DNA of 43,476 nucleotides, taken from NCBI RefSeq assembly GCF_951230165.1, contig NZ_CATNVB010000021.1:1-43476 (forward strand), in the 5' to 3' direction. Below are positions 782 to 41,394 of this stretch, piece by piece. A model generated the notes under the pieces. The model did no database searches, was not told the origin of the DNA, and was given only the letters and a program-made list of their open reading frames with translations. The stretch is from Lentilactobacillus sp. Marseille-Q4993. GTDB taxonomy: Bacteria; Bacillota; Bacilli; Lactobacillales; Lactobacillaceae. The translations under genes and the position numbers were made by a program. Every line of letters starts with the position of its first letter. Positions within the stretch are counted from its first letter, which is position 1.

Positions 782-1861
782 ATGACGGTTTATAATTTTT
801 CAGCAGGTCCAGCAGTGTTACCCAAACCCGTAATTCAGCAAATTCAGGCAGAACTACCATCTTTAAATGATTCTGGAATGAGTATTCTAGAGATTTCTCA
901 CCGCTCCCAAATGTTTGATGAAATCATCGATGAAGCTAAGGATAACTTAACGAAGCTGTTAAACATCCCTGCCGGTTATCAAGTCCTATTTTTTCAAGGC
1001 GGCGGAACTGGTCAGTTTGCCGCTGCTCCAATGAATATGGCTGGTGATCAAAGGAAAATCGCCGTATTAGACAGTGGCCATTGGGCTGACAGAGCATATC
1101 AAGAAGCTCTAAAAATCGGCTTCAAAGCCGACGTTCTAAAGTCCACTAAGAGCAAAAAGTACACTGAACTCCCTCGGCTAAATCAAGAAAACAACCTCTC
1201 AGGCTACGATTACCTTCACGTCACAATGAACAATACCATTGAAGGAACGGCTTACCATAAGAATGCTGGTAATCCAGGAATCCCTGTCGTGGCGGATATG
1301 TCATCTAACTTTTTAGCCGAACAGTACCAGGTTTCCGATTATGGCATGATTTTCGCGGGAGCTCAAAAAAACGTTGGCCCGGCGGGAGTTACCATTGTCA
1401 TCGTTAAGGAATCACTCATCAGTCAAGCTGAGTTTGTCCCAAGCATTCTTGACTACAATCTGATGATCAAAAAGAATTCGATGTTCAATACACCACCAGT
1501 ATTTTCAATCTACTCCGTTAATTTGGTCCTCAAATGGTTACTGAACGAAATCGGTGGGGTTGCCAACATGGAAAAAATCAATCAGGAAAAAGCCGGAATT
1601 TTGTACGAATTCCTTGATAACTCCAAACTATTCAGCAATAACATCAAGGTTTCCGATCGGTCACTCACCAATATTCCGTTCACAACCGGTAATGAGGACT
1701 TAGATGCCAAACTAGTTAGTGAAGCCACGGCAGCTGGACTGATGAACCTAAAAGGTCATCGAAGCGTTGGTGGTTTGCGAGCTAGTTTGTACAATGCCAT
1801 GCCACTCGAAGGGGCTAAGGCGCTCGTTGAATTTCTACATCAATTTGAAACTAACAATTAG
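782..1861 (+). CDS. serC: Phosphoserine aminotransferase
   Basis: This PLP enzyme converts 3-phosphohydroxypyruvate and glutamate to O-phosphoserine, the second step of serine synthesis. The 359-residue product has the usual family length. It opens with TVYNFSAGPAVLP, contains the glycine-rich FQGGGTGQFAA, and carries the Schiff-base lysine in AGAQKNVGPAG. The C-terminal segment GHRSVGGLRASLYNA is the conserved phosphate-binding region. I chose ATG at 782 because AAGGAG (768-773) is spaced 8 bases from it; an in-frame GTG at 773 overlaps that ribosome binding site. serA follows after 12 bases, so the two form one operon controlled by the serine attenuator. Phosphoserine phosphatase (serB) is not in the window. 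Confidence 0.95.
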   Translation: MTVYNFSAGPAVLPKPVIQQIQAELPSLNDSGMSILEISHRSQMFDEIIDEAKDNLTKLLNIPAGYQVLFFQGGGTGQFAAAPMNMAGDQRKIAVLDSGHWADRAYQEALKIGFKADVLKSTKSKKYTELPRLNQENNLSGYDYLHVTMNNTIEGTAYHKNAGNPGIPVVADMSSNFLAEQYQVSDYGMIFAGAQKNVGPAGVTIVIVKESLISQAEFVPSILDYNLMIKKNSMFNTPPVFSIYSVNLVLKWLLNEIGGVANMEKINQEKAGILYEFLDNSKLFSNNIKVSDRSLTNIPFTTGNEDLDAKLVSEATAAGLMNLKGHRSVGGLRASLYNAMPLEGAKALVEFLHQFETNN

Positions 1862-1873
1862 GGGGAAATAAAT

Positions 1874-3052
1874 ATGTATCAGATTAAAACTTTTAACGCT
1901 ATTGCCCAAGCAGGACTTGATAAATTTACCGATAAGTACCAAATCAACCAAGACGATAATGCGGATGGTTACCTAATTAGATCAGTTGACCTTCATAAAC
2001 ACGAATTTCCAGCTAATTTAAAGGTAATTGCCAGAGCAGGTGCCGGCTTCAACAACATCCCACTAGACCGTGCTACAGAGTCAGGAATTGCCGTTTTCAA
2101 CACCGCAGGAAGTAACGCTAACGCCGTTAAAGAGTTGGTAATCGCAATGTTAGTTGCCGCATCTAGAAACCTGTTTGCAGCTGCAGCATACTCCGCCCAA
2201 AATAGTGGTGCTGACATTTCGCTCCGGGCAGAAAAGGATAAGACCAAATTCAACGGGGAGGAATTGACTGGCAAAACTCTGGCAGTTATTGGAGTTGGTC
2301 ACGTTGGTTCTCTTGTTGCGAATGCTGCTAACGCCCTTGGAATGAAGGTTATTGGTTACGATCCATACCTTTCGTCAGATGCCGCATGGAGAATTTCAAC
2401 TTCTATCAAACGGGCTCAAAGTTTAGATGAAGCCCTTGAAAACGCTGATTTCGTGACAGTCCACGTTCCAAAAAACGAAGAAACCACTGGTATGATCGGT
2501 GATGACCAACTAGCTGTAATGAAAGATGATGCTGTTCTCCTCAACTTTGCTCGTGGTGGCATCGTTAATAATAAAGCAGCAGTTACTGCCTTAGATAATC
2601 ACCACTTAAAGAATTATATGACCGACTTCGGCGACGACATTTTGCTAAATCGAGATGATGTAGTAATCACTCCCCATATCGGTGGCTCAACGGAAGAAGC
2701 TGAAATCAACGGGGCAACTCAGGCAGCATCAAAGATCGTCCAGTACCTAGAAACTGGAAACATTGAAGGTTCAGTTAACTTACCAAACCTAACTGTCCCA
2801 ATGAACAGTCCATTTAGAATCACGATTATTCATAAAAACATTCCTAACATGGTTGGTCAAATCGCTACTTCACTTGCCAACATGGGAATCAACATCGAAA
2901 GTATGTCGAACGCAGCTAAAGAGAAAGTTGCTTACACAGTAATCGATGTTAACCACCTAAATGAGAATCAGGAAGATAAGTTAACAGATAATCTAGCCGG
3001 CATTGACTCAGTGTTCAAGGTCCGAGTAATCGGTAGCCCAGAACCAAAATAA
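1874..3052 (+). CDS. serA: D-3-phosphoglycerate dehydrogenase (ACT-domain type)
   Basis: This enzyme oxidises 3-phosphoglycerate to 3-phosphohydroxypyruvate with NAD, the first step of serine synthesis. The 392-residue protein has a substrate-binding part, a Rossmann segment with GVGHVGSLVANAA near residue 140, the catalytic Arg in FARGGIVN, the His in ITPHIGGST, and a C-terminal ACT domain from about residue 315 (FRITIIHKNIPNMVGQIA). ACT domains in SerA usually bind serine for feedback inhibition. It is the short type found in lactobacilli and streptococci. Where the family normally has the catalytic-relay Glu, the sequence reads TDFGDDILL, so an Asp may replace it. A strong GGGGGA ribosome binding site precedes the ATG. 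The gene is co-transcribed with serC. Confidence 0.93.
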   Translation: MYQIKTFNAIAQAGLDKFTDKYQINQDDNADGYLIRSVDLHKHEFPANLKVIARAGAGFNNIPLDRATESGIAVFNTAGSNANAVKELVIAMLVAASRNLFAAAAYSAQNSGADISLRAEKDKTKFNGEELTGKTLAVIGVGHVGSLVANAANALGMKVIGYDPYLSSDAAWRISTSIKRAQSLDEALENADFVTVHVPKNEETTGMIGDDQLAVMKDDAVLLNFARGGIVNNKAAVTALDNHHLKNYMTDFGDDILLNRDDVVITPHIGGSTEEAEINGATQAASKIVQYLETGNIEGSVNLPNLTVPMNSPFRITIIHKNIPNMVGQIATSLANMGINIESMSNAAKEKVAYTVIDVNHLNENQEDKLTDNLAGIDSVFKVRVIGSPEPK

Positions 3053-3055
3053 TAC

Positions 3056-3101
3056 AAAAAGTCCAATTGGAAACTAAATTGGTTTCCGATTGGACTTTTT
3101 T
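3056..3101. terminator. Bidirectional terminator between serA and flavin reductase
   Basis: A long stem (left arm from A-run 3056-3060 through GTCCAAT, right arm ATTGGAC plus T-run to 3101) separates two convergent genes. The inner right arm is GGTTTCCG (3081-3088), a copy of the over-represented word described in the findings; the left arm carries the near match GGAAAC. Confidence 0.9.
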
Positions 3102-3107
3102 ATATTT

Positions 3108-3701
3108 TTATCTATGAAATGGATTATCTTTTAAAACTTTAGTATAGAACTTAATATCGTTAAATGCGTCACCAAACCGCTTCTCAAAGTGAGAACTGTT
3201 TTCCGCACTCATCACCAACTCACCGTTATCACTAAAGTTGCGGTCAGCGTTCCAAACTAACACTGGTTCTGGTAGGACCATCATCTTTAACATTTGAAGA
3301 ATCTCAACAATTGACTCCGCTGCTAACATCCCACCATCACTAAAGTGCGAGTATGAAATCACTTGAACTGGCTTATGGTCAACTTCACCGCCAATATAAT
3401 CAAGGGCATTTTTAAGGGCTCCGGTAATTGCATGGTCATATTCTGGCGTTAGGATAATGTAGCCATCCTGAGCGGCAATATCATTAAGCCACTTTTTCTC
3501 AATCCCTTCCAGATTCTGGATTGGGTTTGAAAGTGGCGTTTCCTCATGGTCGTACAAGGGAAGTGGGTAATCTTTCAACCGTAACCAAGTAAATTCAAAC
3601 TCATCATTACTTTGAAACCGATTCTTTAAGTAACTAAGAATCTTGTCCCCAAGAGCAGCCGTTCGGGTTGTTCCGAGAATCACACCAATTTTATATGTCA
3701 T
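3108..3701 (-). CDS. NADPH-dependent FMN reductase family protein
   Basis: The 197-residue product is a flavodoxin-fold reductase. The N-terminus MTYKIGVILGTTRTAALGDKIL supplies the FMN phosphate loop. The middle part contains ILTPEYDHAITGALKNALDYI, the conserved [TS]PEYN-like motif of the NADPH-dependent FMN reductase (azoreductase/quinone reductase) family. Here the usual Asn is Asp, a common variant. It is a cytosolic enzyme that would pass electrons from NAD(P)H through flavin to quinones or azo compounds; the real substrate is unknown. The GGAGG site 7 bases upstream of the ATG supports the start. It stands alone between two terminators. Confidence 0.85.
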   Translation of the reverse strand: MTYKIGVILGTTRTAALGDKILSYLKNRFQSNDEFEFTWLRLKDYPLPLYDHEETPLSNPIQNLEGIEKKWLNDIAAQDGYIILTPEYDHAITGALKNALDYIGGEVDHKPVQVISYSHFSDGGMLAAESIVEILQMLKMMVLPEPVLVWNADRNFSDNGELVMSAENSSHFEKRFGDAFNDIKFYTKVLKDNPFHR

Positions 3702-3797
3702 TGTGGACCTCCAAAAGTTTTATTCAGCCTCATTATTACATATTTTTGGAATATTGTTAAATTAAATTTTATGATATTAATTTGAATTTCTATAAAC

Positions 3798-3833
3798 AAA
3801 AAACGAAAACCTGGCAGCAAACCAAGTTTTCGT
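3798..3833 (-). terminator. Terminator of the pyrBC transcript
   Basis: Read on the minus strand, arms of the form ACGAAAAC..GG and CC..GTTTTCGT (3822-3833 and 3803-3814) are followed by six T (complement of 3798-3803). It lies just after the pyrC stop codon. Confidence 0.85.
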
Positions 3834-3850
3834 TTCTTCTTTTTATTAAC

Positions 3851-5122
3851 CTATTTTTGATAAACTACGTTGCCGTCAACCATTGTCAGCAATGTATTTC
3901 CATACACGTTCTCGCCAACAAATGGACTGTTCTTTCCCTTTGAAGCAAAATCAGCTTTCTTGATCTCTTCACTGTTATCCAAGTCGAATACAGCAATATC
4001 AGCGGGACCACCAACTTTTAAAGTTCCAAGATCGCCCATATTAAATACAGAGCTTGGGTTACCAGCTAACCAATTAATTAATTGATCAAGAGAAAAAATC
4101 CCGGCTTTTACGTACTTAGTATATAGCATAGCAAACGCCGTTTCACTACCAGTAATTCCAAATGGGGCTTTAGTTACTGATTGGTCCTTCTCAGCAGCCG
4201 TGTGAGGAGCATGATCAGTCGCAATCATATCAATCGTTCCATCAAGCAAACCTGCAACTAATGCTTCTTGGTCTGATTTACTTCTCAATGGTGGGTTCAT
4301 TTTATAGAAGGAATTATCAGTTTGAATGTCATCCTCGGTAAGCAATAAGTGATGAGGAGTAACTTCACACGTCACATTAATTCCCGCTTTTTTAGCCTGT
4401 CTAACGGCCTCAACGGTGTGCTTTGAAGAAACGTGACAGATGTGATAGTGCGCCCCAGATTCTTGGGCAAGCACTAAATCACGGGCAACTTGCGCAGTTT
4501 CGCTAACCCATGAGATTGGCTTTACATTCAATCTTGCAGCGGCCTCTTCGGCAAGGACACCACCGGCTACTAAACTAATATCTTCAACGTGGGCAACAAT
4601 CGCCATGTTAACGCGCTTGGCTTCCTTCATAGCGTTAAACATTGTTTCGCTAGTTTGAATTCCACTACCATCATTTGAAAAGGCAAATGCGCCAGCTTGT
4701 TTCAAACCATCGAAGTCAACCAACTGATTGCCCTCTCGATTTTCAGTAATTGTGGCATACTGCTTGATACGAACAACACCCTTATTTTCATTTAACTTAC
4801 TTTGGGCCCTAAACCGGTCAACCGTATCTGGAGTTGGGTCAAGATTAGGCATCGCACACACCGTTGTAAATCCACCACGAGCTGCAGCCTTGCTTCCAGT
4901 TTCAATCGTTTCCTTATCTGTAAAGCCCGGTTCACGGTAATGAACATGAACATCAATCAGTCCCGGAGCAACGAACGCCCCTTTTGCATCAATTACCTTT
5001 TCAGCTTTATCCTCATCAATTCTACTATCTATAGAAGTAATTTTTTCATTTTCTACTAAAATATCTTTTGAAACTAGTTGGTTACCCTGGAGAATCTTGC
5101 CGTTTTTGATAATTGTTTTCAC
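3851..5122 (-). CDS. pyrC: Dihydroorotase
   Basis: This zinc enzyme closes carbamoyl-aspartate to dihydroorotate, the third step of UMP synthesis. The 423-residue length and motifs fit the type-I bacterial family: DVHVHYREPGF near residue 57 (metal-binding HxH), the MPNLDPTPD stretch, ICHVSS, and the metal Asp in ATDHAPHT. The start is GTG at 5122, with GAGGAG lying inside the last codons of pyrB, so translation is coupled. Only 5 bases separate it from pyrB. The rest of the pathway (pyrD, pyrE, pyrF) is not in the window, so the pyr genes are split here. Confidence 0.95.
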   Translation of the reverse strand: MKTIIKNGKILQGNQLVSKDILVENEKITSIDSRIDEDKAEKVIDAKGAFVAPGLIDVHVHYREPGFTDKETIETGSKAAARGGFTTVCAMPNLDPTPDTVDRFRAQSKLNENKGVVRIKQYATITENREGNQLVDFDGLKQAGAFAFSNDGSGIQTSETMFNAMKEAKRVNMAIVAHVEDISLVAGGVLAEEAAARLNVKPISWVSETAQVARDLVLAQESGAHYHICHVSSKHTVEAVRQAKKAGINVTCEVTPHHLLLTEDDIQTDNSFYKMNPPLRSKSDQEALVAGLLDGTIDMIATDHAPHTAAEKDQSVTKAPFGITGSETAFAMLYTKYVKAGIFSLDQLINWLAGNPSSVFNMGDLGTLKVGGPADIAVFDLDNSEEIKKADFASKGKNSPFVGENVYGNTLLTMVDGNVVYQK

Positions 5123-5127
5123 GTTAA

Positions 5128-6072
5128 CTACTCCTCGATTAGGTTTTTGAATCTTAGCATACTTGCGATAATTGCCATCCGAACGAAGACACCGTTCTTC
5201 ATTTGTTCAAAAATTCTTGAACGGTCACATTCAACTAACTCATCCGCAATTTCAACATCCCGATTAACTGGAGCTGGATGCATGATAATTGCATCGTCCT
5301 TCATTTGTCGTTCGCGGTCTTTAGTCAAACCGTATTGTTGGTGATACTTAACGTCTGAGAATGAGCCGTTCTCATCTGCGGCTAACCGTTCATGTTGGAC
5401 TCGGAGAAACATCATTACATCCATCTCTGGGACTAATTCATCAATTTCCCGCCATTCGCCATATTCAGCAAAGTCATCGGTAAACCATTTCTTTGGGCCG
5501 CCAAAGTATACCTTGGCACCTAATTTAGTAAGAACTTCCATGTTTGAACGAGCAACACGTGAGTGGGATAAGTCACCGACAATGGCAACTTTGAGTCCCT
5601 TAAAGTTACCAAATTCTTGGTAGATGGTCATCATATCAAGTAGTGATTGGGAAGGATGTTGACCCGAACCATCACCAGCATTAGCAATTGCCATGTGGAT
5701 ATTTGGATCTTCAACTAAATCCTTATAGTACTCGTTCTTGCGGTCACGGATAGCAACCATATCAACCCCAATTGCTTGGAGAGTCTTTAATGTGTCTCCT
5801 AAAGTTTCGCCCTTTTTCACTGAGCTAGCGGCAGGGTCAAAGTTAACAACGGTCATTCCCAACTTTCTTTCTGCCATTTCAAAACTAGTGTGAGTTCTCG
5901 TACTATTTTCAAAGAACAGGTTGGCAGCGTATGTAGGTCTAACCAGATCCACCTGTTTACCGTTCTTAAAATCATTAGCCTCTCTGATCAAACTCATTAC
6001 ATCGGCAACGCTTAAATCCTCCATGCTTACAACATTTTCCAAACTTAGTAATTGGGTTGTCATATCAATCAT
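5128..6072 (-). CDS. pyrB: Aspartate carbamoyltransferase catalytic subunit
   Basis: This enzyme joins carbamoyl phosphate and aspartate, the committed step of pyrimidine synthesis. The 314-residue product has the carbamoyl-phosphate signature [13 protein letters not shown] (Ser-Thr-Arg-Thr at 57-60), the HPSQSLLD motif and the MHPAPVNR loop near the C-terminus. I chose ATG at 6072 because AGGAGG (6083-6088) lies 10 bases upstream; an open frame continues upstream to 6183 but runs through the regulatory leader. It is the first gene of a pyrB-pyrC operon with a PyrR-type leader, and it is divergent from carAB, which supplies its carbamoyl phosphate. Confidence 0.95.
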
Positions 6073-6088
6073 GGTCAAAATTCCTCCT

Positions 6089-6304
6089 AAAAAAGACGCC
6101 TTGCCGTGTGTGCAAAGCGCCTTAATACAGAAATCCCGTTGTATTAATATTCGCGTTTTGCCCTCACGGGAGCAAATTAACAATCTAAATAAAAATCAGC
6201 CCCGATACCCAGTTTGGGTAAGGAGGCTGACCAGTTTCATCAATGGCTTACTGTTTAGAATCCTTACTAACCTCTCTGGGTTATCGTTAAAGGCTATTTA
6301 TTTG
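6089..6304 (-). promoter_or_regulatory. PyrR-type attenuator leader of pyrBC with two terminator hairpins
   Basis: On the minus strand the leader contains AACCCAGAGAGGTT (6269-6282) followed by an AAGGATT arm. This closely fits the PyrR-binding anti-antiterminator consensus. Downstream is a terminator hairpin (6196-6230) with five T. A second strong hairpin (6095-6104 with 6112-6121) followed by six T (6089-6094) ends directly at the pyrB ribosome binding site. Between the two terminators are a TTAATAC/GTATTAA hairpin and a CCCGTGAGGG hairpin. PyrR with UMP normally favours termination at one hairpin; the second is not explained by that model. Confidence 0.8.
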
Positions 6305-6310
6305 TCTGTA

Positions 6311-6340
6311 ATTATAAACCCCAATCTCAGCTAATGGCAA
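6311..6340 (-). promoter_or_regulatory. pyrBC promoter
   Basis: On the minus strand TTGCCA (6340-6335) and TATAAT (6316-6311) are separated by 18 bases. Transcription would start near 6304, just upstream of the PyrR site. Confidence 0.75.
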
Positions 6341-6446
6341 GTTATTTTTTTGGGTATTTATCCAATTTCATCACCATCAGTATTTTTTTAGGGGCGGTTA
6401 TAGGATGAGAATAATAAAAAACAGTTTAATCTGTCACTACATGCGA

Positions 6447-6459
6447 TGAATTTTATTCA
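6447..6459. promoter_or_regulatory. Possible ArgR-type box upstream of carA
   Basis: TGAATTTTATTCA resembles an ARG box (TGAAT and ATTCA arms), but the spacer is 3 rather than 4 bases. A further half-site-like TTTATTCA lies at about 6482-6489. If real, it would place carAB under arginine control, unlike the PyrR-controlled pyrBC. Confidence 0.3.
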
Positions 6460-6519
6460 ATAATTTTGGTATATAACTATTTTTATTCAGTTTTAGTCCA
6501 AAATATTGCATATTTACTC

Positions 6520-6548
6520 TTGACACTTTCCCAAAAAACTTTTATTCT
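6520..6548 (+). promoter_or_regulatory. carAB promoter
   Basis: TTGACA (6520-6525) and TATTCT (6543-6548) are spaced by 17 bases. The transcript leader is then only about 35 bases, too short for a PyrR attenuator, so carAB must be controlled at initiation or not at all. Confidence 0.75.
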
Positions 6549-6591
6549 TTAGAAAATTACTTTGCCATGTTATTAACCGGGAGGTTTGGAA

Positions 6592-7650
6592 ATGAAAAAA
6601 TATTTAACTTTGGAAAATGGAGAAACGTTTGTCGGAACCGCATTCGGTGACTTAGCAGCCGAAATTGACGGCGAAATCGTCTTCACCACCAGCATGACAG
6701 GTTACCAGGAGTCAATTACCGATCCTTCCTACCAGGGCCAAATCATTACGTTTACCTATCCACTGATTGGAAACTACGGTATCTCAATGGAAACCAGCCA
6801 ATCTAAGAACGCTCAAGCCAGTGCCGTAGTCGTTCACGAAGTAAGCGATAAGGTATTTCATTATCAAAGCGTGATTACCCTTGACTCATTCTTAAAGCAA
6901 GAGCGAGTACCTGGAATCGCAAACATTGATACTCGGAAACTTACTAAAATTATCAGAAACTTTGGAACCATGAAGGCAAGTCTTACTAATAAGCCTTTGC
7001 CAGCTAAGCAAACCGGAAACCCATCGCTGTCAGTTATCGAATCACAACAGATTTCTAATTCAGCCGATAAAAACAGTCACCACGTGGTATTAGTCGACTT
7101 TGGGGTTAAGGATAATATCGTATCCCAACTTAAGTATCAGGGAACTAATGTAACGGTTGTTACACCTGATGCAACGTTTGAAGATATCGAAAACCTGAAT
7201 CCGGATGGCATCCTATTATCTAACGGGCCTGGCGATCCAACAGATTACATGCATTTCCTACCAATTATCAGACAGCTCCAAGAAAAGTACCCAACGTTTG
7301 GAATCTGTCTTGGCCATCAATTACTAGCACTTGCTAATGGTGCTAAAACCTACAAGTTACCATTTGGTCACCGGGGAATTAATCACCCCGTCAAGAATCT
7401 CCTTACTGGTGAAATCTACATTACTTCTCAAAATCATGGTTACGCTGTGGACATTGATTCACTCGCTGATACTCCACTCGAACTAACAGCAGTAGAAGTT
7501 AACGACAAGACCTGTGAAGGATTACGCTACCCAGGTAAGCCAATCTTCTCAGTCCAATACCATCCCGAAGCAGCCCCTGGACCACATGAGGCTCGCAAAC
7601 TATTTAGCCAATTCATTGAAATGATTGAAGGAGGAGTAAAGAATGCCTAA
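6592..7650 (+). CDS. carA: Carbamoyl-phosphate synthase small (glutaminase) subunit
   Basis: This subunit hydrolyses glutamine and channels ammonia to CarB for carbamoyl phosphate, a precursor of pyrimidines and arginine. The 352-residue protein has the N-terminal CPSase small-chain domain ([13 protein letters not shown]) and a C-terminal class-I glutamine amidotransferase domain. The nucleophile Cys is in [12 protein letters not shown], and the His/Glu pair in [12 protein letters not shown] chose ATG at 6592, 7 bases after GGGAGG; an in-frame TTG at 6586 is inside the spacer. It overlaps carB by 8 bases. No arginine-synthesis gene is present in the window, and the divergent pyrBC operon suggests a pyrimidine role, though the two may be regulated separately. 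Confidence 0.95.
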
Positions 7651-10600: not shown

Positions 10601-10711
10601 AAAACAATTGACCGAAGCTTAGTTCTCGAAACCCTTAATCACCAAATCCCACTGTTTACAGCCAAGGATACGGTATTGAGCGTTGGAAAAGAACGCGTAA
10701 CGGTTGGGTAA
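7643..10711 (+). CDS. carB: Carbamoyl-phosphate synthase large subunit
   Basis: This subunit makes carbamoyl phosphate from bicarbonate, ammonia and two ATP. The 1022-residue product has the duplicated architecture: the first half begins [22 protein letters not shown] and the second half repeats it as [20 protein letters not shown] near residue 555. Each half has an ATP-grasp domain (YTLGGTGGG and FVLGGRGMA) and an EVNPR motif. The C-terminal MGS-like regulatory domain (about 930-1022) is shorter and more divergent than in E. coli, consistent with the roughly 1020-1060 residues usual in lactobacilli. It is translationally coupled to carA by overlapping ends. Confidence 0.96.
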
Positions 10712-10750
10712 TAATTGGCCAACCAAATCATTTAATAGACTCAGACATAC

Positions 10751-10778
10751 CTTAATACCTCTAAAAAACGGTATTAAG
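10751..10778 (+). terminator. Hairpin after carB
   Basis: CTTAATACC (10751-10759) and GGTATTAAG (10770-10778) form a 9-bp hairpin. It lacks a clean T-run and may assist the stronger hairpin directly downstream. Confidence 0.45.
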
Positions 10779-10783
10779 TTGAA

Positions 10784-10827
10784 GCACCCCATAAAAGTTA
10801 GATATAAATCTAACATTTATGGGGTGC
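10784..10827. terminator. Bidirectional terminator after carB
   Basis: The arms GCACCCCATAAA..GTTAGAT and ATCTAAC..TTTATGGGGTGC make a stem of about 19 bp between convergent genes. The T-rich tail (ATTATTT) is weak. Confidence 0.6.
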
Positions 10828-10892
10828 ATTATTTAAACGCCATATTTTTTATCTAAAATGGGACAATATCCATCAACTACACATCATTTACT

Positions 10893-30646: not shown

Positions 30647-30753
30647 TGAGCATCCTCCTACCAAGTTAAAATACGCATAGTGCGTACAATCCTAGCATTA
30701 AGGTTATCACTTTCTGCATGAAAACGCCATAGGATAAGTAAAAAATGTAAATA

Positions 30754-30780
30754 TTAGCACTCTATGAACGAGAGTGCTAA
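30754..30780. promoter_or_regulatory. CIRCE operator (HrcA binding site)
   Basis: TTAGCACTC (30754-30762), nine bases, and GAGTGCTAA (30772-30780) form a perfect CIRCE element. TATAAT at 30781-30786 directly follows as a -10 box. HrcA represses heat-shock genes through this site; here it controls the hsp20 gene. Confidence 0.95.
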
Positions 30781-30852
30781 TATAATAATTGAAAGGTTGA
30801 TAAAGGGCCTTTCAATTAAGATAAATCAAGATACAAAGGAGATCGATAGATT

Positions 30853-31284: not shown

Positions 31285-31324
31285 CTGTAATAACCGTTAA
31301 TAATAGAATCCCCCATCAAAAAGA

Positions 31325-31356
31325 GCCTCAGCAGATTTTCCCGCTGAGGCCTTTTT
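31325..31356. terminator. Terminator after hsp20
   Basis: GCCTCAGC pairs with GCTGAGGC, followed by CTTTTT, between convergent hsp20 and ABC genes. Confidence 0.88.
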
Positions 31357-31380
31357 ATATATGATTATTTCATATTACAA

Positions 31381-34925: not shown

Positions 34926-35023
34926 TTTCTCACCTCGCAGTTAGTCTTTTAAACCCAAATACAATAGCATAAAATTAGTAAATAATGGCAAATCGGGCCT
35001 TGCTAAATATTTCATTTGCCATT

Positions 35024-35047
35024 AATTAATGTATAATAATTAATGTA
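35024..35047 (+). promoter_or_regulatory. -10 box flanked by direct repeats, promoter of the HTH gene
   Basis: TATAAT (35032-35037) lies between two copies of AATTAATGTA (35024-35033 and 35038-35047), the first overlapping it. The arrangement suggests a regulator contacting both sides of the -10 box, possibly the HTH protein itself. Confidence 0.4.
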
Positions 35048-35072
35048 ATCCTTTAGATTGGTGGTGAATAAT

Positions 35073-35885
35073 TTGCCTGAAAATTCTCAGTTCGGTTGGA
35101 CCATGAAAGAAATCGCCGATGAACTTGGCGTAAATAAGATGCGTGTCTACAGAACCATTACCCGTAACGCAATCTCTGAAACGGGCAAAAAGGGCCAGAC
35201 CCTTTACTATAACGATGCTGCGAAAGAAAAGATCGTCAGCATTATTCAAAGTGATGAACCTGATCAAGAAGAACCAAAGGCTAAAAAAGCGTCACGGCCA
35301 AAGGCTACTGCCCCAAGTACTCAGACGGCAAATATCAATTCATCAATCTTCAGCTCATTGAACGAACAAATCAGTAGCCAGCAGGAACAAATTGAAACCC
35401 TGACCAGATTGCTTGATCAGTCGCAGAAGCTACAAATGATTGCTGAAAAGCAGAGTCATGCTTCTGAGCGAAAGGTGGCTGAGCTGGAATCTAAGATCAA
35501 GATGATTGAAGTTGCCAAACCAATTGAAATTGCTCACGAAAGTGAATCAGCTTCAAAACCGGAAACTAAGAAGCAGTCTACTCAACAGGTTTCCGATTCT
35601 CAATCATCACCAACAGCAGTGGCTCTTAAGAGTAACAATGATGGTACTAATGAAGAAAAATCGGAATCAGAAGTAGAACCAACACTTACATCTCACTATG
35701 CCATTAAACAACTGCCAAACGTGGTAACCGTTGTTGCTAATTCAGTCGCCAACTTTGATCAGTCAGCAACCACGATTTACTTACCAAACCCTAACTTTAG
35801 AGTTGAACAAAGCTTGAATTCGAAAAGCAAATCAAAAGATAAAGATGGTTTCTTCAAGCATTTCTGGCAAAAACCACTTATGTAA
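35073..35885 (+). CDS. HTH/coiled-coil protein resembling DUF536-type plasmid proteins
   Basis: An N-terminal helix-turn-helix (FGWTMKEIADELGVNKMRVYRTITRN, about 6-35) is followed by a low-complexity Lys/Pro/Ala linker and a coiled coil (NEQISSQQEQIETLTRLLDQSQKLQMIAEKQ). The latter resembles the DUF536 proteins common on lactobacillus plasmids and on chromosomes. The last 100 residues are unlike that family and end in KHFWQKPLM. The start is uncertain: TTG at 35073 follows GGTGGTG with a spacing of 5-6, giving 270 residues; TTG at 35058 is the frame limit. Role unknown; DNA binding is likely from the HTH. A terminator follows at 35915-35950. Confidence 0.7.
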   Translation: MPENSQFGWTMKEIADELGVNKMRVYRTITRNAISETGKKGQTLYYNDAAKEKIVSIIQSDEPDQEEPKAKKASRPKATAPSTQTANINSSIFSSLNEQISSQQEQIETLTRLLDQSQKLQMIAEKQSHASERKVAELESKIKMIEVAKPIEIAHESESASKPETKKQSTQQVSDSQSSPTAVALKSNNDGTNEEKSESEVEPTLTSHYAIKQLPNVVTVVANSVANFDQSATTIYLPNPNFRVEQSLNSKSKSKDKDGFFKHFWQKPLM

Positions 35886-35914
35886 ATCAATATCACGACC
35901 ACCTTCAATTGGTG

Positions 35915-35950
35915 CGGTGCCAACCAGATTTGGCCCCCACCGATTTTTTT
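35915..35950 (+). terminator. Terminator after the HTH gene
   Basis: CGGTG-CCAA pairs with TTGG-CCACCG through an internal loop, followed by seven T. Confidence 0.75.
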
Positions 35951-35996
35951 ATCACTTTCTTCGATAAAGTAATAACAGACAAAAAGGGATAATTAA

Positions 35997-36025
35997 TTGA
36001 AGGCTTCCTAAATCCGTGATACCAT
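35997..36025 (+). promoter_or_regulatory. Possible promoter of the amidotransferase-like gene
   Basis: TTGAAG (35997-36002) and TACCAT (36020-36025) are spaced by 17 bases, giving a leader of about 80 bases before the GTG start. Confidence 0.4.
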
Positions 36026-36111
36026 GGGTTAAATTATTATCATCAAATTTTAATTTTACTACTTATTTTATAACATTCATACCTTATTTTAATAATTCGG
36101 AGGAAAAAACA

Positions 36112-36858
36112 GTGCGTCCAAGAATAGCCATGCCAGCAGATACATTAACGGAAGCAACAAATATTATCAACGAACGAAACGCTGCGTTTGCACCACGCCA
36201 AGCAATCGAAGCAATCGTGAAATCCGGTGGAGTTCCTGTAATCTTACCAAGCGTTGATCCCGAAGACGTTCGCGATTATATCACGATGTTTGATGGGGTC
36301 TGCTTTCTTGGCGGAGCAGATGTCGACCCAACCTTTTACGGTGAAGAACCATTCCAAAAATTAGGAATGACTTACCGCAAACGAGACTTATTTGAAATTG
36401 AGCTCCTTAAACAATCAGTCACCGCTGGAAAAGCAATCTTTGGAATTTGCCGCGGAATGCAGCTGATTAACGTTGGTCTTGGTGGGACCTTGTACCAAGA
36501 CCTCTCACAAGATCTGCATGCCACATTAAAGCACAGTCAAGATGCGCCTGGAAACCTGCCATCCCACCACATCACCGTTGACCCTAATAGTCGGCTACAC
36601 GATATTATTGGTGAGCGGCCATACGTCAACTCTCGTCACCATCAAGCAATCAAGGACATTGCCCCTTACTTAAAGGTTACCGCCAGAGCAGATGACCAAG
36701 TAATTGAAGGGGTTGAATCTATTGATAGTGACCAAATTCTTGGCGTTCAATGGCATCCTGAGAATATTTATAAACACTATGAGGACTCCAAAAAACTATT
36801 TAGAGATTTTGTTAACCGAGCAGAAAAGGTTGCCGAAAAAAGGACTAGTTCTAACTAA
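36112..36858 (+). CDS. Gamma-glutamyl-type hydrolase (peptidase C26)
   Basis: The 248-residue class-I glutamine-amidotransferase-like enzyme has the nucleophile Cys in AIFGICRGMQLINV and the His/Glu pair in VQWHPENIY. The N-terminal GVCFLGGADVDPTFYGE and HSQDAPGNLPSHHI are typical of the PuuD/YvdE-like group, which splits gamma-glutamyl bonds such as gamma-glutamyl-GABA. The real substrate is not determined. I chose GTG at 36112 because GGAGG (36099-36103) lies 8 bases upstream; the longer frame to 36016 has no site. It stands alone between terminators. Confidence 0.85.
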   Translation: MRPRIAMPADTLTEATNIINERNAAFAPRQAIEAIVKSGGVPVILPSVDPEDVRDYITMFDGVCFLGGADVDPTFYGEEPFQKLGMTYRKRDLFEIELLKQSVTAGKAIFGICRGMQLINVGLGGTLYQDLSQDLHATLKHSQDAPGNLPSHHITVDPNSRLHDIIGERPYVNSRHHQAIKDIAPYLKVTARADDQVIEGVESIDSDQILGVQWHPENIYKHYEDSKKLFRDFVNRAEKVAEKRTSSN

Positions 36859-36874
36859 TCCTTTGGCTTAACAA

Positions 36875-36910
36875 ACGTCATCAAGACTTTACGTCTCGAT
36901 GGCGTTTTTT
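36875..36910 (+). terminator. Terminator
   Basis: ACGtCATCaAGAC pairs with GTCTcGATGgCGT, followed by six T. Confidence 0.85.
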
Positions 36911-37058
36911 ACTATTATGACAAATTAAGTTTACGTTCAAATGACATTTTTAAGTTTTTATTATCTAAAGCTTATCCAGCGTAAACCCTATTCAGATAAT
37001 GGAAATAATGTGTTACCATTCGGTTGAAACATGCGGAAAAACTTTAGGAGATGTTTTT

Positions 37059-38192
37059 ATGAAACAAACAATGTTTACAAAGTTAGGGGTTACTCTGATT
37101 GCTTCCGCTGGGGTGTTTTTAGCTTCAACTGGTGTTCATGCTTCACTAACACCATCAAGTAGCAATCCACTGACCGACATGGTAGATCTTTCAAGTTGGC
37201 AGTCAAACTTATCAGCAAGTGATTATCAAACTTTAGCTGATAACGGGGTAAAAGCCGTTACAATTAAGGCTTCTGAGGGAACTGGATACATAAATCCATA
37301 CCTATCACAACAAGTTAAGTATGCTCAGCAAGCTGGTTTAAGTATCAACTTTTACCATTTCGCTCGGTTCACTAGTACCGGTGCAGCTCAACAAGAGGCC
37401 CAGAACATGATCAACGCAGTTCAACAAGTCACCGATAGTAAGAATGTTGTCATGGTCGTTGACTTCGAAGCTTCAGAACTTGGGTCATTATCAAAAGCTG
37501 CGAATAACGCAAACCTTGCCGCGTTTGACCAGGTTATCAACAACGCTGGTTATAACAAGACCGACCTTTACACAATGTCCAGTTGGGTAGGTACCAAGAT
37601 TGATTTAAACGATCAAAACAAAGGATGGATCGCAAACTGGCCATCAACCCCAACTGGAAACAAGTATCCAGATGCAAATGCATGGCAATGGGCAAGTGAT
37701 TATCGGTTCCCTGGTGAAAGTTCAGATTTAGATGTTAGTCAATTAAACAATGACTTCTATCTAAACTCATCAACTGGTTCTTCCAACCACACAGCAACTA
37801 CGCCTAGTGATAACAGTGATAGTAGTTCAACTGCCAACAATGGTAATTCTGGTGACGGTACGGCCGTTATCATTCCAGGTCCAAAACCGGAAACCAACCA
37901 ATATTCAGCTTCGCGGTCACAATCCGTTAAGTTAATTTGGCGAAAATCAATGGGCCGATACGCATTCCACACAACAAAGGGAGCTAGGTACTCAAAGCAC
38001 TTAGGAATTCGGTACGACTACAACAAATACTTACCAAACGCAACTTGGTATACTGATGGTCACGAAAAACTTTATAAGAAAACTACCGGTAGATACAACA
38101 TTTACTACCACGTTCGCAGTCACGATAATAAACATGGCGGCTGGATCTGGAGAGGTTACCTGACAAGAGGGGTCAACCCAAATCAGAATTAG
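37059..38192 (+). CDS. Secreted GH25 lysozyme with a C-terminal wall-binding-like module
   Basis: The 377-residue protein has a signal peptide (FTKLGVTLIASAGVFLASTGVHA) and a GH25 domain at about 40-230. The catalytic acids are in DMVDLSSWQ and VVDFEA, with conserved INFYHFARF and WQWASDY. A Ser/Thr/Asn-rich linker leads to a C-terminal module of about 90 residues. That module is basic and aromatic (LIWRKSMGRYAFHTTKGARYSKH, KLYKKTTGRYNIYYHVRSHD, WIWRGYLTRG), a type found on lactobacillus surface hydrolases and probably wall-binding. It would cut muramic acid linkages in peptidoglycan. I chose ATG at 37059 after TTAGGAG; the earlier ATG gives no signal peptide. It is not next to a holin, so a prophage origin is unlikely. 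Confidence 0.88.
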   Translation: MKQTMFTKLGVTLIASAGVFLASTGVHASLTPSSSNPLTDMVDLSSWQSNLSASDYQTLADNGVKAVTIKASEGTGYINPYLSQQVKYAQQAGLSINFYHFARFTSTGAAQQEAQNMINAVQQVTDSKNVVMVVDFEASELGSLSKAANNANLAAFDQVINNAGYNKTDLYTMSSWVGTKIDLNDQNKGWIANWPSTPTGNKYPDANAWQWASDYRFPGESSDLDVSQLNNDFYLNSSTGSSNHTATTPSDNSDSSSTANNGNSGDGTAVIIPGPKPETNQYSASRSQSVKLIWRKSMGRYAFHTTKGARYSKHLGIRYDYNKYLPNATWYTDGHEKLYKKTTGRYNIYYHVRSHDNKHGGWIWRGYLTRGVNPNQN

Positions 38193-38265
38193 CTTAAAGT
38201 GAAGTTACTTCCTCTCTAAACTAATTTTATCAACCCAAGTGGTTGGGACATAACTAGGTAAACCG

Positions 38266-38316
38266 AAAAAAAGTAGCGATAAATTTCATTTTCTTGAAAT
38301 TTATCGTTACTTTTTT
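38266..38316 (+). terminator. Terminator sharing its tip with 16205-16253
   Basis: An AAAAAAAGTA..TACTTTTTT stem of about 22 bp has the tip TTCATTTTCTTGAA, identical to the earlier terminator although the lower stems differ. Confidence 0.9.
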
Positions 38317-38340
38317 GCTTTTATCCAAATTGTTGCTACA

Positions 38341-38448
38341 CGCAGTAACCATCAGGACTGAGGACCATTATTCATGGCCCTCAGTTACTGTTGGTTGTGC
38401 GGGGGTGGGACGACGAAAGCATCTTCGTATGCTTTCTGTCCCACTCCC
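38341..38448. repeat. Two adjacent long hairpins, possible mobile or dispersed element
   Basis: A 61-base imperfect inverted repeat (38341-38401: CGCA, AACCA, CTGAGG-CCAT, ATGG-CCTCAG, TTGGTT, TGCG arms) adjoins a second hairpin. In that one GGGGGTGGGACGACGAAAGC (38401-38420) faces GCTTTCTGTCCCACTCCC (38431-38448). GTGGGACAGAAAG-type hairpins occur between genes in several lactobacilli and staphylococci. It lies between the lysozyme terminator and the brnQ stop codon and may terminate brnQ. Confidence 0.6.
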
Positions 38449-38473
38449 TATATTTCTATACTTATAGAAGAAA

Positions 38474-39874
38474 CTAATTCTTTTCTGATTCAGATACAGC
38501 CTTCTGACCCGCAAATACCGGCTTTAAGAAATGATATCCTAAACCAAGAACAGCCCCAACAACTGCGGGAACTACCCAATCCATTCCTAGGTTTGCGAAT
38601 GGCAAGACAGCATGCTGGAAGTTAGTCAGTGCTTGGCCAAATGCGCTTTGGCTAACAACTGGAGGGAATGCAGCAACCATATCTAACAATGCAGGTACTG
38701 TTGTAAATCCAACAACGAGTCCATAAACAACTGGATCGCGGCCAAATAATGGTGAAAATACTGATAACAAAATCAATACCATTGCGAATGGATAAAGGAA
38801 CATCAGCATTGGAGTAGACCAAGCGATGATAGTGTCCAATCCAAAGTTTGCAGTTAAGAATGAAGCTGCACACATCATTCCAAGCCAAGCCCGATAGCTA
38901 ACCTTTGGAAAATGATTATGAAAGTCCTGTGCAAAGGCGGCAACTAAACCAACCGCAGTTGTCAAACAAGTAACTGTTAATAATGTTGCCAATAGTGCGT
39001 GACCAAAGCCACCAAGATAAAAACCAACTAACTGGTTGAAAGCTACCCCACCATCAGCTGAAACTTTAAACTTAGTAAGCGTAGTTGCCCCAAGCCAAAC
39101 GAGAACCACGTAGATCAAACCAATTGCGGCGGTTGCGAAAACCCCAGCTTTAGCAGTCACCGCTGCGTTTTCCTTTGGCTCAGTTTTTCCTAACTGTTTA
39201 ACAGCTGTGACAACGGTGACTCCAAAGGCTAAACCAGCTAGGGCATCCATTGTGTTGTATCCTTGAAGAAAACCATTAAAGAATGAAGCGTGTTGGTAAG
39301 CAGCGGTTGCTTTTTGGGCAGCTGCACTTCCCATTGGATTCCAGAATCCTAATAGAAAAACAGAAAACAGCATTACCAAGAATACTGGGTTCAATACTTT
39401 ACCAACTGATGTAAGAACGTTTGACTCCTTATAGGAAACCAAAAACGCTAACCCAAAGAATACTGCAGAAAATAATAGCAAACCAACGTGACTCATTGAT
39501 TGGGGAAGCAAGGGTTGAACACCAACAGAAAATGGAACAGTTGCTGTTCTTGGCGTTCCAAACAAAGGACCAATCGTTGCGTGAATTAAAACCATGAATG
39601 TTAATGCAAACCAGGGTCCTAATGGTTTACCAACATCGTAAACCCCTTCTGACTTAGTGACACTGATAGCTAGAACTGATAACAAGGGTAGTAGCACTGC
39701 GGTAACCAAAAATCCGACCGTTGCCATCACCCAATGTGATCCTGCTAATTGACCAAGATGAATTGGGAAGATTAGGTTGCCGGCTCCAAAAAATAATCCA
39801 AAGAGCATTGAACTCACGACAAAATATTGTTTCTTCGTTAACGGCTTATTATTTAAGTCTGGTAATTTTTCCAT
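38474..39874 (-). CDS. brnQ: Branched-chain amino acid permease
   Basis: The 466-residue protein has about 12 membrane segments and belongs to the LIVCS family (BrnQ). Typical are KKQYFVVSSMLFGLFFGAGNLIFPIHLGQLAG at the N-terminus and TATVPFSVGVQPLLP in the third or fourth segment. It takes up leucine, isoleucine and valine with Na+ or H+. The gene is preceded by a T-box whose specifier region reads as isoleucine, which agrees with the family. ATG at 39874 follows AGGAGAGTG. It forms a single-gene unit. Confidence 0.94.
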   Translation of the reverse strand: MEKLPDLNNKPLTKKQYFVVSSMLFGLFFGAGNLIFPIHLGQLAGSHWVMATVGFLVTAVLLPLLSVLAISVTKSEGVYDVGKPLGPWFALTFMVLIHATIGPLFGTPRTATVPFSVGVQPLLPQSMSHVGLLLFSAVFFGLAFLVSYKESNVLTSVGKVLNPVFLVMLFSVFLLGFWNPMGSAAAQKATAAYQHASFFNGFLQGYNTMDALAGLAFGVTVVTAVKQLGKTEPKENAAVTAKAGVFATAAIGLIYVVLVWLGATTLTKFKVSADGGVAFNQLVGFYLGGFGHALLATLLTVTCLTTAVGLVAAFAQDFHNHFPKVSYRAWLGMMCAASFLTANFGLDTIIAWSTPMLMFLYPFAMVLILLSVFSPLFGRDPVVYGLVVGFTTVPALLDMVAAFPPVVSQSAFGQALTNFQHAVLPFANLGMDWVVPAVVGAVLGLGYHFLKPVFAGQKAVSESEKN

Positions 39875-39968
39875 AATGACACTCTCCTATTTTTTAAACT
39901 CTGATGTAAAACCATAATCTGACTAATATCAATCTGGGATTCCATTAAACCATCTCCTTTGCTGAAAC

Positions 39969-40235
39969 AAAAAAAGCACCCCTAATCCACTTGGACTAAG
40001 GGTGCTAGTAGCACGGTACCACCTTACATTATGATCCTATTGCTAGAATCAACTCTCGCGTACGGTCTTACGACGATACGCCAACACAATAATGGGTGTC
40101 ACCAATGCACGTTACTTTTTGTTTCGATGCATCGCTCAAAAGGGATTTTCCAATTTCCAGTTGTGCTTCCTTTCACCTAACGAAGCTCGCTAATCAACAA
40201 AGAAAAAGTACTCAGCTTTCTCACAGCGTTTATTA
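39969..40235 (-). promoter_or_regulatory. T-box riboswitch of brnQ, best read as isoleucine-specific
   Basis: On the minus strand GGTGGTACCGTGC (40023-40011) is followed by a terminator hairpin (40005-39976) and seven T (39975-39969). Stem I contains a GAGTAC motif and the AGCGAGC..GGTGAAAGG distal part. In the specifier loop GAAA-ATC-CC puts ATC (Ile) at 40146-40144. The bulge TGGT would pair with discriminator A73 of tRNA-Ile. A neighbouring ATT or TCC reading is possible, but ATC fits the gene best. Confidence 0.88.
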
Positions 40236-40249
40236 ATAATTGCCATTAT

Positions 40250-40276
40250 ATTATAACTAAGAATTTTGAATGTCAA
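40250..40276 (-). promoter_or_regulatory. brnQ T-box promoter
   Basis: On the minus strand TTGACA (40276-40271) is followed by TATAAT (40255-40250, spacer 15) and an overlapping TAATAT at spacer 17. Confidence 0.65.
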
Positions 40277-40330
40277 CTTTAAATTACTTAATTAAAAAAG
40301 GTAACCGCTTTCTAAAGCCTCCAAAACTAT

Positions 40331-40336
40331 TATAAT
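40331..40336 (+). promoter_or_regulatory. -10 box of the hydroxyacid dehydrogenase gene
   Basis: TATAAT lies 38 bases before the ATG at 40375. The -35 region is not clear. Confidence 0.5.
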
Positions 40337-40374
40337 TAAAGGTGGAACAACAACTTTTAAGGAGTGATTTTTTT

Positions 40375-41340
40375 ATGGCTAAGGTTTTAATCGCTGGAAG
40401 AATTCCAGAAAGTGCAATATCCATTCTCAAAGATGGGGGCCTAGAGATTGAAGTGTTTGATGATAGTAAGGCACTAATTACCAAGGACGAACTCAAAGGT
40501 AAAGTTACCGATAAGGACTTCTTGATTACTCCCCTTTCAACCAAAGTAGATAAGGATATTATCGATGCCGCTCCAAATCTCAAACTGATTGCAAACTACG
40601 GAGCTGGTTTTAACAATATCGATACCGAATACGCAAAGAGCAAGGGAATCCCCGTAACAAATACACCTAAAGTTTCGACAACATCAACTGCTGAAGTTAC
40701 CTGTGGGCTCATTGTTTCAATTGCTCACAGAATAGTTGAAGGTGATCAATTAATGCGGACCACTGGTTTTTCTGGTTGGGCACCACTCTTCTTCCTTGGA
40801 ACTGAATTAGCTAACAAGACCCTAGGGATCATCGGCATGGGGCAAATTGGTCAGGCAGTTGCTCGGCGAATGAAAGCCTTTGATATGAATATCATCTATA
40901 GTGGCCGGCATCCATTAGATTCGGAAACCGAACGCGAACTGGGAGCAAAGTTTGTTTCCTTTGATGAATTAATCAAAACTGCAGACGTGGTTAGTCCCCA
41001 TATTCCAGCCACACCAGATACTCACCATATGATTGGGGCTGAACAATTTAAACAAATGAAACCAACGGCCTTCTTAATAAACGCAGCCAGAGGTCCAGTA
41101 ATCGACGAAACAGCACTCTTAGATGCACTTAAAAATCACGAAATTGCTGGAGCAGGTCTTGATGTTTACGAAAAAGAACCTGAAGTTGCCGATGGTTTCA
41201 AGTCTCTAAAGAATGTAATTCTGACTCCCCACATTGGTAATGCCACCGTCGAAGCCAGAGATGCAATGGCAGAAATCGTTGCTAAGAATACTGTGATTGC
41301 AAGTAAGGGTGGCGAACCAAATTATATTGTAAATAAATAG
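40375..41340 (+). CDS. D-2-hydroxyacid dehydrogenase
   Basis: The 321-residue NAD-dependent enzyme has the Rossmann motif GIIGMGQIGQAVARRM (about 145-160) and the three catalytic residues: Arg in NAARGPVIDE, Glu in LDVYEKEPEV and His in LTPHIGNATVEARD. The overall order and the GAGFNNID segment resemble glyoxylate/hydroxypyruvate reductases (GhrB/GyaR-like) more than D-lactate dehydrogenase. The exact substrate, such as glyoxylate, hydroxypyruvate or 2-oxoisocaproate, is open. I chose ATG at 40375, about 8 bases after AAGGAGTG. It is convergent with pyruvate oxidase across a shared terminator. Confidence 0.9.
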   Translation: MAKVLIAGRIPESAISILKDGGLEIEVFDDSKALITKDELKGKVTDKDFLITPLSTKVDKDIIDAAPNLKLIANYGAGFNNIDTEYAKSKGIPVTNTPKVSTTSTAEVTCGLIVSIAHRIVEGDQLMRTTGFSGWAPLFFLGTELANKTLGIIGMGQIGQAVARRMKAFDMNIIYSGRHPLDSETERELGAKFVSFDELIKTADVVSPHIPATPDTHHMIGAEQFKQMKPTAFLINAARGPVIDETALLDALKNHEIAGAGLDVYEKEPEVADGFKSLKNVILTPHIGNATVEARDAMAEIVAKNTVIASKGGEPNYIVNK

Positions 41341-41356
41341 CAACTCAGAACTATGC

Positions 41357-41394
41357 AAAAGCGGAAACCAAATTCATTTGGTTTCCGCTTTTTT
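41357..41394. terminator. Bidirectional terminator built from paired CGGAAACC/GGTTTCCG
   Basis: A perfect 17-bp stem (AAAAGCGGAAACCAAAT facing its complement) is followed by T in both directions. It contains CGGAAACC (41362-41369) and GGTTTCCG (41380-41387) as facing arms, between the convergent dehydrogenase and pyruvate oxidase genes. Confidence 0.93.

Follow-up and report, generated by a model that had tools for sequence, protein, structure and literature searches.

A degenerate motif concentrated around dnaA in Lentilactobacillus, the probable mark of an origin-centred chromosomal domain

The stretch analyzed here (the window) comprises the 43,476 nucleotides of contig NZ_CATNVB010000021.1 of Lentilactobacillus sp. 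Marseille-Q4993 (contig C21 of the source genome, G000) and is rich in the octamer CGGAAACC, which belongs to a degenerate, nonpalindromic motif of 11 bp, approximately 5'-AAnCGVRAACY-3' (V = A/C/G). Copies of this motif probably mark an origin-centred domain of some 400 kb in several species of Lentilactobacillus, where they would be coated by a putative sequence-specific DNA-binding protein. In two relatives whose DNA was divided by distance from dnaA, the copies are centred on that gene; their excess goes beyond codon usage, depends on chromosomal position, and includes few sites shared between species. Binding by a protein, and the role that this would serve, are suggested by these sequence patterns.

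Over-representation and form of the motif

The octamer CGGAAACC was found 23 times on both strands of the window, against 0.91 copies expected (standard deviation [SD], 0.94; 100 dinucleotide shuffles, maximum of 3), which confirmed the count of 23 with fewer than one expected reported in a first-pass annotation of the sequence. That annotation had also proposed a genome-wide check with a Markov model; for the window, an order-3 model gives 1.4 expected copies, and CGGAAACC heads the ranking of over-represented 8-mers with at least six copies. The over-representation of the word in the window is real. All but one of the word positions previously listed were correct, the exception being 15321, which should read 15322. 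The six additional copies of the core GGAAACC are actually seven, as 17502 had been overlooked and 39435 should read 39434 (30 cores in the window versus 5.9 expected), and CCAAAGG, put at about eight copies, is present in 11 (7.2 expected). A further word, AGTCACCG, has eight copies in the window versus 0.96 expected under the order-3 model.

In the counts that follow, near and far are defined by distance from dnaA in the relatives G001 and G006 and by richness in the word itself in G000. The octamer CGVRAACY was derived from variants enriched near versus far from the origin. Across 241.6 kb of rich stretches of G000, CGGAAACC was identified 63 times (7.6 expected), CGCAAACC 47 times (7.4 expected), and CGCGAACC 14 times (2.0 expected), and ten poor stretches totaling 200 kb of the same genome held 2, 5, and 1 copies, respectively. 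When 8-mers with at least 10 copies were ranked by near-origin enrichment (24,556 words in G000, 22,990 in G001, and 24,728 in G006), pieces of the motif occupied the top ten, top seven, and top four places, respectively. Adenine is preferred at position -2 (68% in G000, 65% in G001, and 53% in G006) and, in two of the three genomes, at -3 (58%, 51%, and 36%), with a mild preference for the same base right behind the octamer. The palindrome TTCAATTGAA was counted near versus far at 6 versus 0 in G000, 2 versus 1 in G001, and 1 versus 3 in G006.

Pairs of sites lying head to head within 30 bp are found near the origin (13 near versus 0 far in G000, 14 versus 0 in G001, and 5 versus 0 in G006), as are tail-to-tail pairs (6 versus 1, 3 versus 0, and 5 versus 1, respectively); as the two kinds are equally numerous near the origin of G006 (five each), no head-to-head preference exists in that genome. 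Judged by eye, 8 of the 13 head-to-head pairs of G000 are hairpins followed by a T-run. The earlier proposal that inverted pairs supply hairpin arms between convergent genes was borne out in the window, where positions 3060 to 3110 (-23.3 kcal/mol; z = -7.8), 23610 to 23665 (-27.3 kcal/mol; z = -6.3), and 41345 to 41405 (-26.6 kcal/mol; z = -6.6) fold as hairpins. The motif seems to be borrowed for terminator stems, as uptake words are.

Sites are present on both strands of genes, as had been noted for the word, with sense-to-antisense ratios of 70/45 in G000, 65/49 in G001, and 50/51 in G006, and leading-to-lagging ratios of 65:80, 49:79, and 52:66, respectively. Of the near-origin sites, 391 in all, the G-rich strand carries 166 (0.425); the share predicted from composition is 0.425 in G000, 0.428 in G001, and 0.468 in G006. 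The strand bias does not exceed the composition prediction, and the motif is unoriented.

Distribution around dnaA and dependence on chromosomal position

The source genome (2.28 Mb in 75 contigs; completeness, 99.57%; contamination, 0.52%) contains 118 copies of CGGAAACC and 75 of the reversed word. Among the places listed, the copies cluster in contigs C16, C17, C19, C21, C25, C27, and C28, in C3 from approximately 132 kb onward, and in C12 past approximately 20 kb, with none in C2, C8, or C9. The longer pattern WWnCGSRAACC has 3 to 11 copies in each of ten rich stretches (18 to 20 kb long), 12 copies in C28, and 26 in the window, compared with 0 to 2 per poor stretch. Two stretches are counted as neither near nor far in G000, namely, the border stretch L135 (C12, positions 1 to 20000; three CGSRAACC and no WWnCGSRAACC) and the all-N stretch L139. 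Words of the CCAGAACCAG type are strongly over-represented in the poor stretches L041 to L050, probably owing to one repetitive gene. No genome among 397 from the family (a subset of the larger group) approached the density of the window, the densest having approximately 66 copies of CGGAAACC per Mb versus 529 per Mb (rounded sizes).

The CarB protein encoded in the window shares 75 to 78% identity with Lentilactobacillus proteins and 74 to 75% with those of Secundilactobacillus, and the genus group that holds the relatives compared (g1) was taken to be Lentilactobacillus. The dnaA gene lies on a rich contig (C17) in G000, at 854.8 kb in G001 (a single contig of 2.10 Mb), and at 1,247.7 kb in G006; in both relatives the GC skew turns from negative to positive at this gene, as expected for an origin. 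A terminus domain, guessed from the mid-contig position of the sites in G001 and G006, was discarded once dnaA had been located there.

Comparison with 800 kb of G001 DNA, 420 kb of it within 220 kb of dnaA, placed 137 of 143 matches of open reading frames (ORFs) from 12 rich G000 stretches within 220 kb of the gene, versus 24 of 116 matches from 28 poor stretches. Relative to dnaA of G001, the main places of the rich stretches are -214 to -177 kb for the end of C3, -177 to -146 kb for C19, -123 to -118 kb for C28, -96 to -48 kb for the window, -37 to -9 kb for C16, 0 to +52 kb for C17, +57 to +65 kb for C25, and +155 to +160 kb for the end of C12. Scattered further matches of rich-stretch ORFs also exist, and C27, with only two matches, could not be placed. 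For the window itself, 27 of 29 matched ORFs lie at -96 to -48 kb in G001 (the others at -215 and +41 kb), and 16 of 17 lie at -259 to -175 kb in G006 (the other at +163 kb). Some poor stretches also map near dnaA of G001, which include the start of C12 (+144 to +147 kb), C29 (4 of 4 matches), C13 (4 of 5), and the start of C3 (4 of 6).

In G001, 94 copies of AANCGVRAACY were identified in 420 kb near dnaA versus 6 in 300 kb far from it, an 11-fold difference in density (binomial P = 7e-16), and in G006 48 copies in 435 kb versus 7 in 300 kb, a 4.7-fold difference (P = 6e-6). The corresponding counts for G000 were 120 in 261.6 kb and 15 in 521.2 kb (P = 6e-41). Stretches lying 225 to 300 kb from dnaA (four of G001 and three of G006) were outside these counts and the shuffle sets below. 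Along the G001 chromosome, CGSRAACC reaches 14 copies per 20 kb between approximately -216 and +160 kb, although unevenly (down to 1), and 0 to 4 copies outside this range. It is sparse right at dnaA, with three copies in 40 kb (840001 to 880000; L159 and L205); this may not be general, as the 20-kb stretch of G000 adjoining dnaA (L034) holds seven.

To separate the motif from codon usage, codons were exchanged among synonymous positions within each gene in 100 rounds. Coding sites near the origin exceeded the shuffles 2- to 5-fold, with 115 versus 22.1 (SD, 4.5) in G000, 114 versus 28.3 (SD, 5.1) in G001, and 101 versus 43.1 (SD, 5.8) in G006, in agreement with the first-pass view that codon usage does not explain the copies. 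Far coding sites were at 22 versus 24.8, 13 versus 14.3, and 29 versus 26.7, respectively. Intergenic densities per 10 kb, near versus far, were 6.85 versus 0.38 in G000, 1.92 versus 0.22 in G001, and 2.17 versus 1.02 in G006.

Orthologues that differ in location between species show that chromosome position matters and single sites do not. In 37 pairs located near dnaA in G001 and more than 225 kb away in G006, 19 sites were found in the former versus 2 in the latter (P = 1e-4), and 13 pairs near dnaA in G006 and not in G001 had 6 versus 0. Similarly, 31 pairs near in G000 and not near in G006 held 21 sites versus 1 (P = 5e-6), while 28 pairs near in G006 and not in G000 held 8 in G006 versus 2 in G000 (P = 0.055). 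Two small groups go the other way: two pairs that are near in G000 but far in G001, with 1 and 2 sites, and six pairs that are far in G000 but midway in G006, with 3 and 0. Where both orthologues are near the origin, sites seldom coincide: 127 pairs from G000 and G001 contain 70 and 58 sites, respectively, with 11 of the 70 coinciding, and the fractions are 1/36 for G000 and G006 and 1/27 for G001 and G006. Identity within site octamers (0.68, 0.64, and 0.58) was no higher than across aligned codons (0.71, 0.68, and 0.68; G000-G001, G000-G006, and G001-G006, respectively).

Window features, partition genes, and other genomes

The sites in the window are listed in the table. Two long ORFs that it also contains lack recognizable families: the 613-aa ORF at 14339 to 16180 (+) has neither a Pfam nor an NCBIfam match, and the 459-aa ORF at 29285 to 30664 (-) has no Pfam match.

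Table. Motif sites and hairpins in the window
Positions	Feature	Strand or basis
1330..1337	CGGAAACC site (AATCGGAAACC) in serC	-
1648..1655	CGGAAACC site in serC	-
1772..1779	CGCAAACC site in serC	-
3060..3110	Hairpin between convergent genes; full arm CGGAAACC at 3081-3088 plus degenerate arm	folding
7014..7021	CGGAAACC site in carA	+
8400..8407	CGCAAACC site in carB	+
10953..10960	CGGGAACC site in XRE-type HTH gene	-
11076..11083	CGGAAACC site in XRE-type HTH gene	+
11652..11659	CGGAAACC site, intergenic	+
11993..12000	CGCAAACC site, intergenic	-
12885..12892	CGGAAACC site in PTS_EIIC_2 gene	-
13874..13881	CGGAAACC site in degV-type gene	-
15034..15041	CGGGAACC site in 613-aa ORF	-
15322..15329	CGGAAACC site in 613-aa ORF	-
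15906..15913	CGGAAACC site in 613-aa ORF	+
20193..20200	CGCAAACC site in ABC2-type ORF	+
22191..22198	CGGAAACC site in TetR-type gene	+
23169..23188	Two CGGAAACC sites, direct repeat 12 bp apart, in polysaccharide deacetylase gene	+
23629..23646	Inverted pair CGGAAACC/GGTTTCCG, hairpin between convergent genes	folding
24110..24117	CGGAAACC site in amino-acid-binding protein gene	+
24741..24748	CGCGAACC site in glnQ-like gene	+
25185..25192	CGGAAACC site in glnQ-like gene	+
28423..28430	CGGAAACC site in VIT-family gene	-
35588..35595	CGGAAACC site in ORF with weak HTH_23 match	-
37508..37515	CGCAAACC site in ORF 36999-38192	+
37888..37895	CGGAAACC site in ORF 36999-38192	+
38590..38597	CGCAAACC site in branched-chain amino acid transport gene	-
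40922..40929	CGGAAACC site in ORF 40342-41340	+
41362..41387	Inverted pair CGGAAACC/GGTTTCCG, hairpin between convergent genes	folding
41969..41976	CGCAAACC site in ORF 41417-43183	+
1..43476	Whole window, part of origin domain	ORF matches in G001 and G006

A single ParB-family match was identified in each of G000, G001, G006, G017, and G011, within the gene order rsmG-parA-parB-ychF (L258 to L262). The ParB-family gene is approximately 557 kb from dnaA in G001, 631 kb in G006, and 321 kb in G017, and approximately 110 kb in G121, a genome of another genus with the order rsmG-(second ParB-family gene)-parA-parB-ychF (L257/L263), in which the second gene passes the Noc cut-off. This cut-off was passed in 55 of 121 family genomes. 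No Noc was found in the Lentilactobacillus genomes examined; G000, G017, G007, G022, and G021 have one match each, which by E-value falls far short of the Noc cut-off. One ParB-family match per sampled genome was also found in other genera (for example, g5, g33, g35, g40, g43, and g46), so the absence of Noc is not peculiar to Lentilactobacillus, and the loss of Noc was rejected on this ground as the sole cause of the motif domain. The scanned stretches of Lentilactobacillus contain nothing within two mismatches of the consensus Noc site (TATTTCCCGGGAAATA), and G121 has four such sites, all near dnaA; sites within two mismatches of the parS consensus (TGTTTCACGTGAAACA) were found near dnaA in these genomes.

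A search for candidate binders among 18 basic proteins of fewer than 330 aa, whose genes lie in rich G000 stretches and which have a match in G001, gave none that stands out. One gene in the window (10893 to 11528, -) encodes a 211-aa protein with an N-terminal XRE-type helix-turn-helix (HTH) domain and a hydrophobic C-terminal stretch, sharing 85% identity with its G001 and 40% with its G006 counterpart; it could conceivably be a membrane-linked DNA-binding protein and is offered as a lead only.

Among further genomes, 21 of 69 listed sites of G011 lie on contig C112, which is unplaced relative to dnaA, and 9 of 35 sites of G022 lie on contig C1, which starts with dnaA. In G019, dnaA was matched as two overlapping pieces (L195 and L196, contig C112), possibly an assembly error. 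There was no near-origin enrichment in G121 (22 CGSRAACC in 140 kb near and 9 in 60 kb far). Across eight genomes of eight further genera, AANCGSAAACC was below its reversed control in seven, although with 3 to 13 copies these are too few for a strong test; the eighth, G094, has 44 copies versus 33 reversed, scattered along the chromosome. In open-licence literature the words CGGAAACC, CGCAAACC, GGTTTCCG, and GGTTTGCG led to papers that, judged by title, concern human or animal subjects, and the motif was absent among the matches listed for origin motifs in lactobacilli and Firmicutes and for Noc and uptake sequences in lactobacilli.

Readings of the motif domain

As the sites are dense, unoriented, and rarely shared, and chromosome position sets their excess, the agent proposed is a protein of the architectural or tethering kind. 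A putative sequence-specific protein would recognize AAnCGVRAACY and coat the origin region; its likely task would be the positioning, tethering, or compaction of freshly replicated origins, or keeping the division machinery away from them. Any selection would bear on how many sites the domain contains rather than on individual sites. A bolder version, put forward tentatively, is that of an undescribed origin macrodomain, in which a new type of protein, sitting on one AAnCGVRAACY site per 2 to 5 kb in the two strongest species over approximately 400 kb around oriC, may have assumed the task of marking or tethering origins, or of nucleoid occlusion, in a lineage that lacks Noc and has parAB far from the origin.

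Several points weigh against the origin-domain reading. As the rich set of G000 was picked by the word, there is some circularity in the near/far, shuffle, and orthologue counts of that genome, and G001 and G006, although independent tests, are both relatives. In G006, 63 of 98 matches from rich stretches lie within 220 kb of dnaA, along with 40 of 110 from poor stretches; this mapping is weaker because gene order differs in G006. The signal is weak in G017, of the same genus (6 WWnCGSRAACC in 120 kb near and 0 in 80 kb far), and among the sites listed for G019 the dnaA contig holds 1 of 56 and contig C125 holds 10. No origin cluster was identified in nine genomes of nine other genera, seven of which have few sites. 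Comparing whole-genome counts of AANCGVRAACY with those of the reversed pattern in 24 genomes, the clearest excesses were those of G000 (214 versus 118), G011 (216 versus 135), and G001 (131 versus 89), and G006 showed none (106 versus 144). Whole-genome counts are insensitive as a test of the genus: G006 lacks a whole-genome excess, yet the 18% of its chromosome within 225 kb of dnaA accounts for 49 of the 100 sites listed, out of 106, so position reveals a domain mark that copy number may miss.

Of the alternatives, the one that survives best, although it is doubtful, is a narrower form of the main reading, in which the motif and its putative protein replace Noc and keep the division ring off the origin-proximal nucleoid in a genus without Noc. 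The single ParB-family match in five Lentilactobacillus genomes, set beside the extra Noc-type gene of G121, and the distribution of Noc-like sites described above fit this idea, as does the origin-proximal location of Noc sites in B. subtilis and S. aureus (PMC5540599). However, several other genera also have a single ParB-family match, and G026, G128, and G156, three of the eight genomes of further genera, have no match above the Noc cut-off, yet no origin cluster of the motif. Noc sites cover half to two-thirds of the chromosome (PMC5540599), whereas the motif domain covers about a fifth.

A regional mutational or compositional bias around the origin, producing the word without any binding protein, appears improbable. 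Replication timing and gene dosage depend on how far a locus lies from the origin, and the low number of shared sites fits a neutral process too. The excess is nevertheless specific, as almost every top-ranked near/far 8-mer is a fragment of a single motif. It persists when codons are shuffled synonymously, and in G000 its density in intergenic DNA is no lower.

The first-pass annotation had favored a DNA uptake signal, with a chromosome-organizing word, such as Chi, as the fallback. A short over-represented word on both strands, with inverted pairs forming hairpins between convergent genes, is what an uptake signal would look like, but the copies are origin-centred and at neutral expectation outside the approximately 400-kb region around dnaA, far coding regions equal their synonymous shuffles in three genomes, and orthologues that lie outside the domain in another species lack the motif; an uptake signal of a competent lactobacillus is thus very unlikely. 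The fallback gains support from the origin-centred distribution, although not in the form of a polar word such as Chi or KOPS, which has equally little chance of being correct: the C-rich strand has more sites (225 of 391; P = 0.003 against one-half), but this share is the one composition predicts, and most of the sampled G001 chromosome has the word at chance level. Foreign DNA, either as contaminant contigs or as a large imported arc from a species with the word everywhere, might be suspected from the restriction of the G000 copies to a subset of contigs and can practically be dismissed, as poor-to-rich transitions inside C3 and C12 and the low contamination estimate argue against contaminant contigs, the same domain is found in G001 and, more weakly, in G006 with most sites not common to the species, and no family genome has a comparable density.

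Known systems resemble the proposed origin domain in part. The parS site, a 16-bp palindrome in few copies, also lies near the origin, whereas the motif is 11 bp, nonpalindromic, and present in 48 to 120 copies in the near-origin DNA sampled. The sparse palindromic matS sites, bound by MatP, mark the E. coli terminus (Ter macrodomain) and are likewise short motifs limited to one chromosomal domain, but they are confined to the terminus, whereas the motif is dense, nonpalindromic, and centred on dnaA. The uptake sequences of Neisseriaceae and Pasteurellaceae are similarly dense, short, unoriented words with hairpin pairs, but are genome-wide. The layout of the motif is best read as resembling that of ram or Noc sites. 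The ram sites bound by RacA, approximately 25 GC-rich inverted repeats, are also dense around the origin, but differ in sequence and density, and the Noc site is a palindrome, which the motif is not. RacA acts in sporulation, and ram sites are also found over the rest of the B. subtilis chromosome (PMC6593407). Noc sites are enriched near the origin in Bacillota, like the motif, but are few, with 41 loci in S. aureus, and extend across at least half of the chromosome (PMC5540599); in addition, the Noc protein is absent from the Lentilactobacillus genomes examined.

The known motif systems, namely, ram sites, Noc sites, and parS, do not describe this motif. A word with the appearance of an uptake sequence can thus be a mark of a chromosome domain, and a motif as dense as this one offers a direct handle for finding the putative protein.

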